A DNA stretch of 42,610 nt from a bacterium. Lineage in GTDB: Bacteria; Cyanobacteriota; Vampirovibrionia; Gastranaerophilales; UBA9971. Every line of letters begins with the position of its first letter. The stretch's first letter is position 1. Positions 30,593 through 32,642 of this stretch are shown one piece after another. The stretch covers positions 1 through 42,610 of the forward strand of contig JBAWVS010000024.1 of NCBI GenBank assembly GCA_037147175.1, written 5' to 3'. The position numbers and the translations under genes were made by a program. Under the pieces are notes generated by a model. It was not told where the DNA came from. It made no database searches and worked only from the letters and a program-made list of their open reading frames with translations.

Positions 30593-32320
30593 TTATATGG
30601 AGGTTGTAATCAGTTCAAGGACTTTGTTGACGGCTTCATCTTTTGGAACGATTGTCATTTCGCCTGTTGAGCGGATTTTTATTTCAACATTACCCTCAGT
30701 TATGGTTTTTCCGACAGTTATTCTTACAGGAATACCTATTAAATCAGCATCTTTGAATTTTACTCCTGCTCTTTCAGATCTGTCATCAATGATAACTTCA
30801 ATATTTTTCTCTGTAAGCTCTTTATAGAAAGCTTCTGCTGTTTCCATCTGAAGCGTATCATTTATATTTACGGGAACTATAATTACATGATACGGTGCTA
30901 TAGCCATAGGCCATTTGATTCCATTTTCATCATGATATCTTTCAATAGCAGCCGCAGCAGTTCTTGAAACACCGATTCCGTAACAGCCCATAATAAAAGG
31001 GTTTTCTTTGCCGGTTTCATCCGTAAAAGTTGCTTTCATTTTTTTGGAATATTTTGTCCCGAGTTTAAAAATGTTCCCAACTTCGATTCCTTTGGTAATA
31101 TCAAGTTTTCCGCTGCAGTTAGGACAGATTTCACCTGCCTCGGCAAGCCTGATATCGGTTAATGTTTTAGGAAGATCAATATCTTTGCCCCAGTTAGCCC
31201 CGACTAAATGCACATCAGCTTTGTTAATTCCAACCACAAAGTTCTTTAAGTCCGCTATGCTGTTATCGCCTATAATTTGAACATTAAGTCCTTTTGATCC
31301 GATAAAGCCTGTTTCTAATTCAAGATTAAATTTTTCTCCCAGTTCTTTTACGTCTGCTTCTGTTGCAATTCTCAATTCATTTGCATTAAGAGCATTTTTG
31401 AGTTTAATTTCTTCTATTGTCTTATCGCCTCTGATAAGAGCAAGAACATATCTTTGGTCTGCCACATATACAAGTGATTTACAGATAACAGAAGGTGGAA
31501 TATTCAAGAACTGTGATAAAGTTTCGATGGTTTTTACATTAGGAGTATCAACTTCTCTGGCTTCTGTAAATTTGCCGTCAGTTTCCGCAGGAAGCATTTT
31601 TGACTCGGCTCTGTTTGAATTTGCCGCATAACCGCAGGAATCGCAAAAAAGAACATCGTTTTCTCCGCTGTCAGTTCTGGTTAGTACCATAAACTCATGG
31701 CTTACGCTCCCGCCTATCGCTCCTGAATCGCTTCGTACCATTTTTGTTTCGAGTCCGCATCTGTTGAAAATATTTATATAAGCTTCGGTCATCTTTTGGT
31801 AAGAAACATCAAGACCTTCTTCATCAGCGTCAAAGCTGTAAGCATCTTTCATTATAAATTCTTTGCCTCTTAAAAGTCCGAATCTTGGTCTTATTTCGTC
31901 CCTGAATTTGTCCTGAATCTGATATAAGTTGACAGGAAGCTGCCTGTAAGATTTAATTTCATCTCTTGCGAGGGCTGTAATAATTTCTTCGTGTGTTGGT
32001 CCAAGCGCACACATTTTTCCATGCCTGTCTTTGAGGCGCATTAGTTCTTTTCCATAGACTTCCCATCTTCCTGATTCCTGCCATAGTTCTTCAGGTTGAA
32101 GTATAGGAAGAAGCAATTCTTGTGCATCTTTGGCATCCATTTCTTCACGGATTATATTTTCAATTTTTTTAAGCACTCTGTACATAAGAGGCATGTATGT
32201 ATAAATTCCGCTGGTTGTTTTTCTTATATAGCCTGCCCGTATAAGTAGCTGGTGGCTGATTACTTCTGCATCAGCCGGAGTTTCTCTTAATGTGTTAAAA
32301 AACAGTTTTGACATTTTCAT
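30593..32320 (-). CDS. proS: Prolyl-tRNA synthetase
   Basis: ProS charges tRNA-Pro in the cytoplasm. The 575-residue protein is the bacterial type with a YbaK-like editing insertion. Class II motif 1 region: TSGIYTYMPLMYRVLKKIENIIREE. Motif 2: WEVYGKELMRLKDRHGKMCALGPTHEE. The editing domain occupies about 225-380 (ETLSQFLNIPPSVICKSLVYV, ADLKNFVVGINKAD) and motif 3 is CYGIGVSRTAAAAIE, followed by the anticodon-binding domain. AAAGGG lies 10 bases before ATG 32320. An unusual structured leader with a 28-codon ORF precedes it (32350-32576). Confidence 0.97.
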   Translation of the reverse strand: MKMSKLFFNTLRETPADAEVISHQLLIRAGYIRKTTSGIYTYMPLMYRVLKKIENIIREEMDAKDAQELLLPILQPEELWQESGRWEVYGKELMRLKDRHGKMCALGPTHEEIITALARDEIKSYRQLPVNLYQIQDKFRDEIRPRFGLLRGKEFIMKDAYSFDADEEGLDVSYQKMTEAYINIFNRCGLETKMVRSDSGAIGGSVSHEFMVLTRTDSGENDVLFCDSCGYAANSNRAESKMLPAETDGKFTEAREVDTPNVKTIETLSQFLNIPPSVICKSLVYVADQRYVLALIRGDKTIEEIKLKNALNANELRIATEADVKELGEKFNLELETGFIGSKGLNVQIIGDNSIADLKNFVVGINKADVHLVGANWGKDIDLPKTLTDIRLAEAGEICPNCSGKLDITKGIEVGNIFKLGTKYSKKMKATFTDETGKENPFIMGCYGIGVSRTAAAAIERYHDENGIKWPMAIAPYHVIIVPVNINDTLQMETAEAFYKELTEKNIEVIIDDRSERAGVKFKDADLIGIPVRITVGKTITEGNVEIKIRSTGEMTIVPKDEAVNKVLELITTSI

Positions 32321-32349
32321 GATAAATAACCCTTTAAAAAAAATTTAAA

Positions 32350-32564
32350 TATGTTAAAATAAAAAGGTGGATAGGCAGGGAGCGCTAACTCCCGTTTACT
32401 CTATTCATTTATTAAAATGGTTATTATTTTTAAGATTAGCTCTAGAATTTCTAGGGCTTTTCTTATTATTTTATTCCCATCTATCATAAGCATCACCACC
32501 TTTGCTAAGAAATTTTTACGATTTGCAGTCGTAGCTTAGCGGTAGCGATTAGAGTGCCTACCCG
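32350..32564 (-). promoter_or_regulatory. Structured leader RNA before proS with 5'-3' and RBS fold-back
   Basis: Reading the minus strand from a start near 32564, the first nine bases (GGGTAGGCA, 32563-32555) are complementary to TGCCTATCC near the 3' end (32377-32369, one G-T pair). Nested inside, CGCTAA (32541-32536) matches TTAGCG (32388-32383). The ribosome site of the enclosed ORF, AAAGGTGG (32503-32496), is exactly complementary to CCACCTTT (32370-32363), which runs into T5ATTTT. The 3' arm can also form its own hairpin (GGGAG/CTCCC). These pairings compete: the two long-range contacts share 32369-32370. The region ends 30-40 bases before proS. It may be an attenuator, a type I toxin mRNA, or both. 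Confidence 0.6.
32401..32487 (-). CDS. 28-residue amphipathic peptide (leader peptide or type I toxin-like)
   Basis: The frame starts at ATG 32487 and stops at TAG 32401, with AAAGGTGG nine bases upstream; an in-frame ATG at 32493 is an alternative. The peptide (MIDGNKIIRKALEILELI... ending ILINE) contains nine isoleucines and five leucines in 28 residues, arranged as an amphipathic or membrane-seeking helix with Lys/Arg near the start and Glu at the end. It has no proline codon, so classical proline attenuation of proS is unlikely. Codon use is heavy in ATA and CTA. The surrounding RNA can hide the ribosome site. Size and plan recall AapA- or Hok-type small toxins; sequence similarity to any known toxin is not claimed. 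Confidence 0.5.
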   Translation of the reverse strand: MIDGNKIIRKALEILELILKIITILINE

Positions 32565-32570
32565 AAAATA

Positions 32571-32576
32571 ATTATA
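32571..32576 (-). promoter_or_regulatory. -10 box of the proS leader promoter
   Basis: On the minus strand the hexamer is a perfect TATAAT, placed seven bases before the start of the complementary 5' arm at 32564. The -35 position (17-base spacing) reads TTTATT, which is weak. It lies just after the OmpH-gene terminator, so transcription for the leader and proS probably begins here. Confidence 0.6.
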
Positions 32577-32599
32577 CAATTAAAAATTAAAATAATAAA

Positions 32600-32623
32600 C
32601 GCACCGGGTAAAAATCCGGTGCG
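32600..32623 (-). terminator. Terminator of the OmpH-like gene
   Basis: CGCACCGG and CCGGTGCG form a perfect 8-bp GC-rich stem with an 8-base loop. On the minus strand it is followed by TTTATTATTTTAATTTTT. It lies 20 bases after the end of the 32643-33089 gene. Confidence 0.92.
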
Positions 32624-32642
32624 TCTTACTCTGTAGAAAATT

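Follow-up and report, generated by a model that had tools for sequence, protein, structure and literature searches.

A multi-copy family of candidate type I toxin-antitoxin elements in Gastranaerophilales with a predicted antitoxin terminator inside the toxin reading frame

A recent account placed type I toxin-antitoxin systems in Proteobacteria, Firmicutes and Tenericutes only, and one candidate from Cyanobacteria, MsoT1/MsoA1, was reported in 2025 (PMC12390103). In the txpA/RatA, bsrG/SR4, bsrE/SR5 and yonT/SR6 systems of B. subtilis, a small hydrophobic toxin is paired with a convergent cis-antisense RNA that covers the 3' part of the toxin mRNA. The SD sequence of these type I systems is sequestered within the mRNA, and the antitoxin promoter of SR4 is stronger than the toxin promoter (PMC7430163). 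BsrG and TxpA are stated not to be toxic in E. coli (PMC12390103). The aapA/IsoA loci of Helicobacter pylori are chromosomal and multi-copy, and combine a long-distance 5'-3' fold-back and SD-masking hairpins in the mRNA with a cis antisense RNA (PMC6733600). The par/Fst system of Enterococcus pAD1 and Ldr of E. coli have convergent promoters and sequester both the 5' end and the SD of the mRNA; in addition, Fst and its RNA II share a bidirectional terminator located after the ORF, and the system has direct repeats and a PXXXG motif (PMC7472228). MsoA1 of Microcystis is a cis-antisense RNA of 56-83 nt directed against the toxin 3' end and 3' UTR, and MsoT1 is a 63-residue protein with two predicted membrane helices and matches from photosynthetic cyanobacteria (PMC12390103).

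We analyzed a stretch of 42,610 nt (the window) in which an earlier note had proposed a fold-back RNA with a short peptide ORF, lying between genes for an OmpH-like protein and prolyl-tRNA synthetase (proS). The minus-strand TATAAT box, the 28-residue ORF without proline and the pairing of the first nine bases with a site near the 3' end are all present as that note described them. It mentioned neither the other copies of the element nor the palindrome within the ORF that is the predicted antisense terminator, nor the predicted antisense promoter, although it had suggested looking for an antisense RNA on the plus strand. The features of the element are as follows.

32571 to 32576, minus strand: perfect TATAAT, -10 box of the presumed toxin mRNA promoter (read as 32576-32571), with a predicted start near 32563.
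32369 to 32563, minus strand: predicted toxin mRNA body with 5'-3' fold-back, based on the fold, a swap test and identity in a sister species.
32563-32555 with 32377-32369, minus strand: P1, GGGTAGGCA paired with TGCCTATCC, nine pairs including one G-U.
32555-32550 with 32403-32398, minus strand: P2, ACTCTA paired with TAGAGT, the latter including the stop codon.
32541 to 32549, minus strand: upstream anti-SD ATCGCTACC, paired in the MFE with GGTGGTGAT at 32500-32492.
32492 to 32503, minus strand: ribosome-binding site AAAGGTGGTGAT, from the sequence.
32401 to 32487, minus strand: ORF of the toxin-like peptide, MIDGNKIIRKALEILELILKIITILINE, with 28 codons (32487-32404) and a stop (32403-32401), based on homologues and codon pattern.
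32378 to 32393, minus strand: 3' UTR hairpin GGGAGTTAGCGCTCCC between P2 and P1, from the MFE; the consensus fold of 48 copies also has a hairpin at this position.
32333 to 32360, plus strand: putative antisense (antitoxin) promoter TTTAAA-N16-TAAAAT with an extended -10, predicted start near 32367.
32367 to 32466, plus strand: predicted antisense antitoxin RNA of about 100 nt, the span between the predicted promoter and terminator.
32438 to 32458, plus strand: AGCTCTAGAATTTCTAGGGCT with TTTCTTATTA directly after it, the predicted intrinsic terminator of the antisense RNA, sharing its bases with the KALxxLEL codons of the ORF.

Related elements, which we call class 1, were extracted 53 times from the order Gastranaerophilales, and 48 of these are non-redundant. 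The window element is very probably one copy of a new chromosomal type I toxin-antitoxin family with cis-antisense antitoxins of about 100 nt. This assignment is made by architecture, from which we infer transcription, duplex decay and toxicity. A compact mRNA would encode a small, amphipathic, membrane-type peptide, and an upstream anti-SD hairpin inside the 5'-3' fold-back would hold the ribosome site shut. From a convergent promoter of greater strength, placed immediately beyond the 3' end, would come an antisense RNA complementary to the 3' UTR and to the 3' two thirds of the ORF, with its own end at an intrinsic terminator inside the toxin codons. By pairing with the toxin mRNA, this RNA would bring about RNase III decay, lock the mRNA shut, or both; the toxin would be freed when antisense transcription is lost or the mRNA is remodelled.

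The fold of the element in the window is much more stable than expected by chance: its energy is -63 kcal/mol, whereas shuffled sequences give -40.1 ± 4.3 kcal/mol (z = -5.39; 0 of 200 shuffles were as stable). The mean z over the 48 copies is -6.2. In the MFE, ATCGCTACC, the anti-SD upstream, binds the ribosome site GGTGGTGAT and leaves the 3' CCACCTTT unpaired. The earlier note had instead described an 8-bp complement between the ribosome site and the 3' end. The match is exact, in that AAAGGTGG (32503-32496) complements CCACCTTT (32370-32363) and offers a second possible partner for the ribosome site, but it is found in the window copy only, whereas the upstream anti-SD recurs and covaries. 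The SD is paired in the MFE of 40 of the 48 copies. Cognate SD/anti-SD strands pair at -16.0 kcal/mol compared to -13.6 kcal/mol when swapped between copies (0 of 10,000 permutations), and GGTGG/CTACC in the window has become GGAGG/ACTCC in a sister species. It is chiefly the upstream anti-SD, and not the 3' CCACCTTT, that masks the ribosome site.

The strands of the 5'-3' fold-back also fit their own partners better than those of other copies (-17.1 versus -15.5 kcal/mol; permutation p = 1e-4 over 48 copies), although this and the other covariation and pairing counts come from related sequences and not from independent events. Because the fold-back appears in the single-sequence MFE of only 25 of the 48 copies, and in 37% of shuffles, we base P1 and P2 on the swap test and on the sister species, in which P1, P2 and the 3' hairpin are identical despite a different ORF. 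A nested CGCTAA/TTAGCG helix had also been proposed, but it does not form in the predicted fold: GCTAAG pairs with CTTAGC, and TTAGCG sits in the 3' hairpin. The sequence is not conserved either, the sister species having AGCTAA.

Just past the 3' end, all 48 class 1 copies have a predicted promoter directed back towards the element, at the same position, 46-70 nt after the stop codon. It takes the form TTGAAA or TTTAAA-N16-TATAAT, or TTGACA-N17-AATAAT. The mean score is 11.2 (maximum 12.5), compared to 8.55 for shuffled sequences and 8.38 at 111 ordinary gene ends used as controls (p = 3e-24), and it exceeds that of the best sense promoter (9.1). The window promoter scores lowest of all (9 of 12) and is equalled by 18% of the control gene ends, so that it would not stand out by itself. 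The RNA predicted to start here has a stable fold of its own (z = -4.62).

The palindrome at 32438-32458 matches an intrinsic terminator in the antisense direction. T residues in the 10 nt past the stem average 5.6 on the antisense side compared to 3.25 on the sense side. Pairing within the palindrome amounts to 89% over the 48 copies, and there are 18 double-change cells, where shuffles gave 4.2 (maximum 10). Its changes force paired amino-acid substitutions, giving KALxxLEL, KSLxxLEI, RTLxxLEF and KVLxxLGL. Judged by these patterns, the palindrome is the predicted terminator of the antisense RNA and covaries at the cost of amino-acid changes. With an antitoxin terminator overprinted on toxin codons, the RNA stem would thus dictate which residues change. 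Such a terminator would show, in a natural setting, how a peptide responds to a constraint on its RNA. It could also serve as a search signature for type I loci, which homology alone seldom reveals.

The class 1 peptides are 24-30 residues long and lack proline in 48 of 48 cases, and the window peptide has a hydrophobic moment of 0.73. Short hydrophobic or amphipathic ORFs with a ribosome site, as found here, are a trait of type I toxins. No match to the class 1 peptides was found in Pfam, NCBIfam or PADLOC, including the profiles for Hok/Gef and other type I toxins. Rfam searches of the window and of the element gave nothing above gathering, with weak matches that we take as chance, and a tRNA/tmRNA search found none.

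A peptide profile matched 49 of 286 genomes of the order, the weakest of these matches being partial and in long frames and excluded from later sets. The ORF palindrome AAAGCYCTAGNNNNNCTAGRGCT is present in 15 of 97 relatives, where the copies inspected sit in short ORFs downstream of a ribosome site; a reversed control pattern had no match. Among 386 genomes sampled across the phylum, 23 carry the element, and every one of them falls within the same order. Strong peptide matches in a wider collection included records named Gastranaerophilales, Melainabacteria and Galligastranaerophilus, and one MAG labelled Heliobacteriaceae. The palindrome pattern found 85 stretches in the genome collection, many of them ordinary terminators, and 70 in viral contigs that resembled ordinary terminators or unrelated ORFs; a related-locus search there found no relative. 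The phage and plasmid collections searched held no match to the element, and beyond the genus a whole-element DNA search gave mostly short chance matches. No recombinase was seen near the copies. The source genome holds two copies, that of the window (C24) and one on C3 upstream of hisB (L094/L037, G000:C3:58911-58988, minus strand). The C3 copy lacks a well-placed start codon and has a mismatch in its terminator palindrome, and is possibly decaying.

The same RNA ends also carry other peptides. In the sister species of the same genus (G001), an element occupies the same place at proS with nearly identical mRNA ends and a different peptide between them. This peptide represents a second class, MKVKFALSERELLILVIVILLLYGKKDLVEILSLL-like, which occurs in several copies per genome in further genera of the family and in additional families within the order. 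Class 2 elements have the same design of 5' and 3' UTRs, and most have the predicted downstream antisense promoter and an ORF palindrome of their own; searches of Pfam, NCBIfam and PADLOC profiles gave only weak TatA-like matches. A third class, MNFRISEKELVIILLILLVLK, occurs as tandem copies 332 bp apart, and class 2 is also tandem in one genome (G011). Tandem copies are likewise a feature of ldr. In the class 3 (L337, 1430-2010) and class 2 (L331, G011:C44) tandems, the copies are near-identical or diverged and lie 330-400 bp apart. By sequence comparison, at least two further hydrophobic peptide classes, the second and third, use the class 1 chassis and have palindromes of their own. We consider it probable that these elements form an order-specific type I superfamily with an exchangeable payload, in which one chassis (fold-back mRNA, anti-SD hairpin and antisense promoter) serves at least three peptide classes, a terminator is overprinted in each, and one payload can replace another at a given site, as at the proS locus of the sister species.

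The earlier note had also offered a proS attenuator, and the element does lie directly upstream of proS both in the window and in G001. Yet the peptide contains no Pro codons and Rfam gave no leader match. A congener (G002, locus L069) has the same OmpH-proS flanks with the element absent, other relatives likewise carry proS without it, and the other class 1 copies adjoin unrelated genes, which presumably include rpoD/mnmG, alaS, dnaN, ruvC, purM/purN, ftsY, hisB and gatA (named from sequence reading, not from a profile search). With such diverse neighbours and an empty site in G002, we reject the attenuator; any leader-peptide attenuator or structured leader of proS now has a negligible chance of being correct. 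Comparison of the occupied site (window 32320-32640) with the empty one shows a junction too diverged to give exact insertion boundaries.

It is also very improbable that the element is a non-coding structured RNA or repeat with an accidental ORF. The palindrome and the RNA ends are its most conserved parts and the C3 copy has no well-placed start, as such an RNA might show, but nearly all of the 53 copies keep an open frame behind a ribosome site, and the peptides of classes 1-3 are always hydrophobic. Outside the palindrome, the third codon position has the most substitutions per site and the second the fewest (0.30/0.16/0.38 at positions 1/2/3), which is a coding-like pattern. A small membrane peptide under antisense control that regulates or remodels membranes, and so the same architecture with a non-toxic output, would fit all of the architectural evidence equally well, and the copies are stable beside housekeeping genes. 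We regard such a peptide as unlikely, because unrelated hydrophobic classes under the same tight control, in multi-copy and tandem arrangements and with decaying copies, are typical of toxins.

Read as a type I toxin-antitoxin family, the elements share with the B. subtilis systems a small hydrophobic peptide, an SD sequestered in the mRNA and, for SR4, the same predicted order of promoter strengths. The overlap geometry of txpA/RatA and bsrG/SR4, with the antitoxin over the 3' part of the toxin mRNA, is present in the sequence, and RNase III decay is a step that we only infer. They differ in that neither peptide nor RNA sequences match, the predicted antitoxin terminator is a covarying palindrome within the toxin ORF, and the copies examined are not on prophages. 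Hok and AapA-type mRNAs had been said to use exactly this logic. A fold-back mRNA with a masked ribosome site is indeed found, with covarying pairings across about 50 homologous elements, and the multi-copy chromosomal loci and predicted cis antisense RNA are shared with aapA/IsoA. The likeness is not exact: the final anti-SD of aapA is at the mRNA 3' end, the recurring anti-SD here lies upstream of the SD, and the predicted antisense arrangement is that of txpA/RatA and bsrG/SR4. Predicted convergent promoters and a sequestered 5' end and SD are shared with Fst and Ldr, but the downstream bidirectional terminator, direct repeats and PXXXG motif are all absent. Membership of Fst/Ldr is ruled out by the proline-free peptides (48 of 48) and by the antisense terminator inside the ORF. 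MsoT1/MsoA1, from a related phylum group, shares the feature of a cis-antisense RNA to the toxin 3' end and 3' UTR, here a predicted one, but its toxin is unlike the class 1 peptides, and its report describes no family resembling the present chassis (PMC12390103).

Among open-licence papers, we found none on type I toxin-antitoxin systems in Melainabacteria, and the two naming Gastranaerophilales with toxin-antitoxin concern other subjects by title. This large family of tiny toxin-like genes in Gastranaerophilales is apparently undescribed so far. It would extend type I systems, in multi-copy form, to the Melainabacteria, mostly uncultured gut relatives of cyanobacteria; if the superfamily reading is true, it would be the first type I system described in that group.

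Putative toxin promoters vary among the class 1 copies. About half have a TATAAT-like box directly before the GGG 5' end, and about half have no obvious TATAAT. Roughly a quarter to a third of the copies (L130, L114, L042, L137, L118 and others) lack the box and carry a recurring TTGANAATTTAATA at the GGG 5' end, which could be either another promoter type or the mark of an insertion site. Two copies (L154 in G021 and L023 in G041) directly follow a gene for a small XRE-type regulator and seem to have no promoter of their own; they may therefore be co-transcribed with the regulator gene. In the window, the putative antisense -35 box TTTAAA (32333-32338, within CCCTTTAAA) and the ribosome site of proS, TTAAAGGG on the opposite strand, overlap, so that the antisense promoter and the proS leader would constrain each other in this copy.
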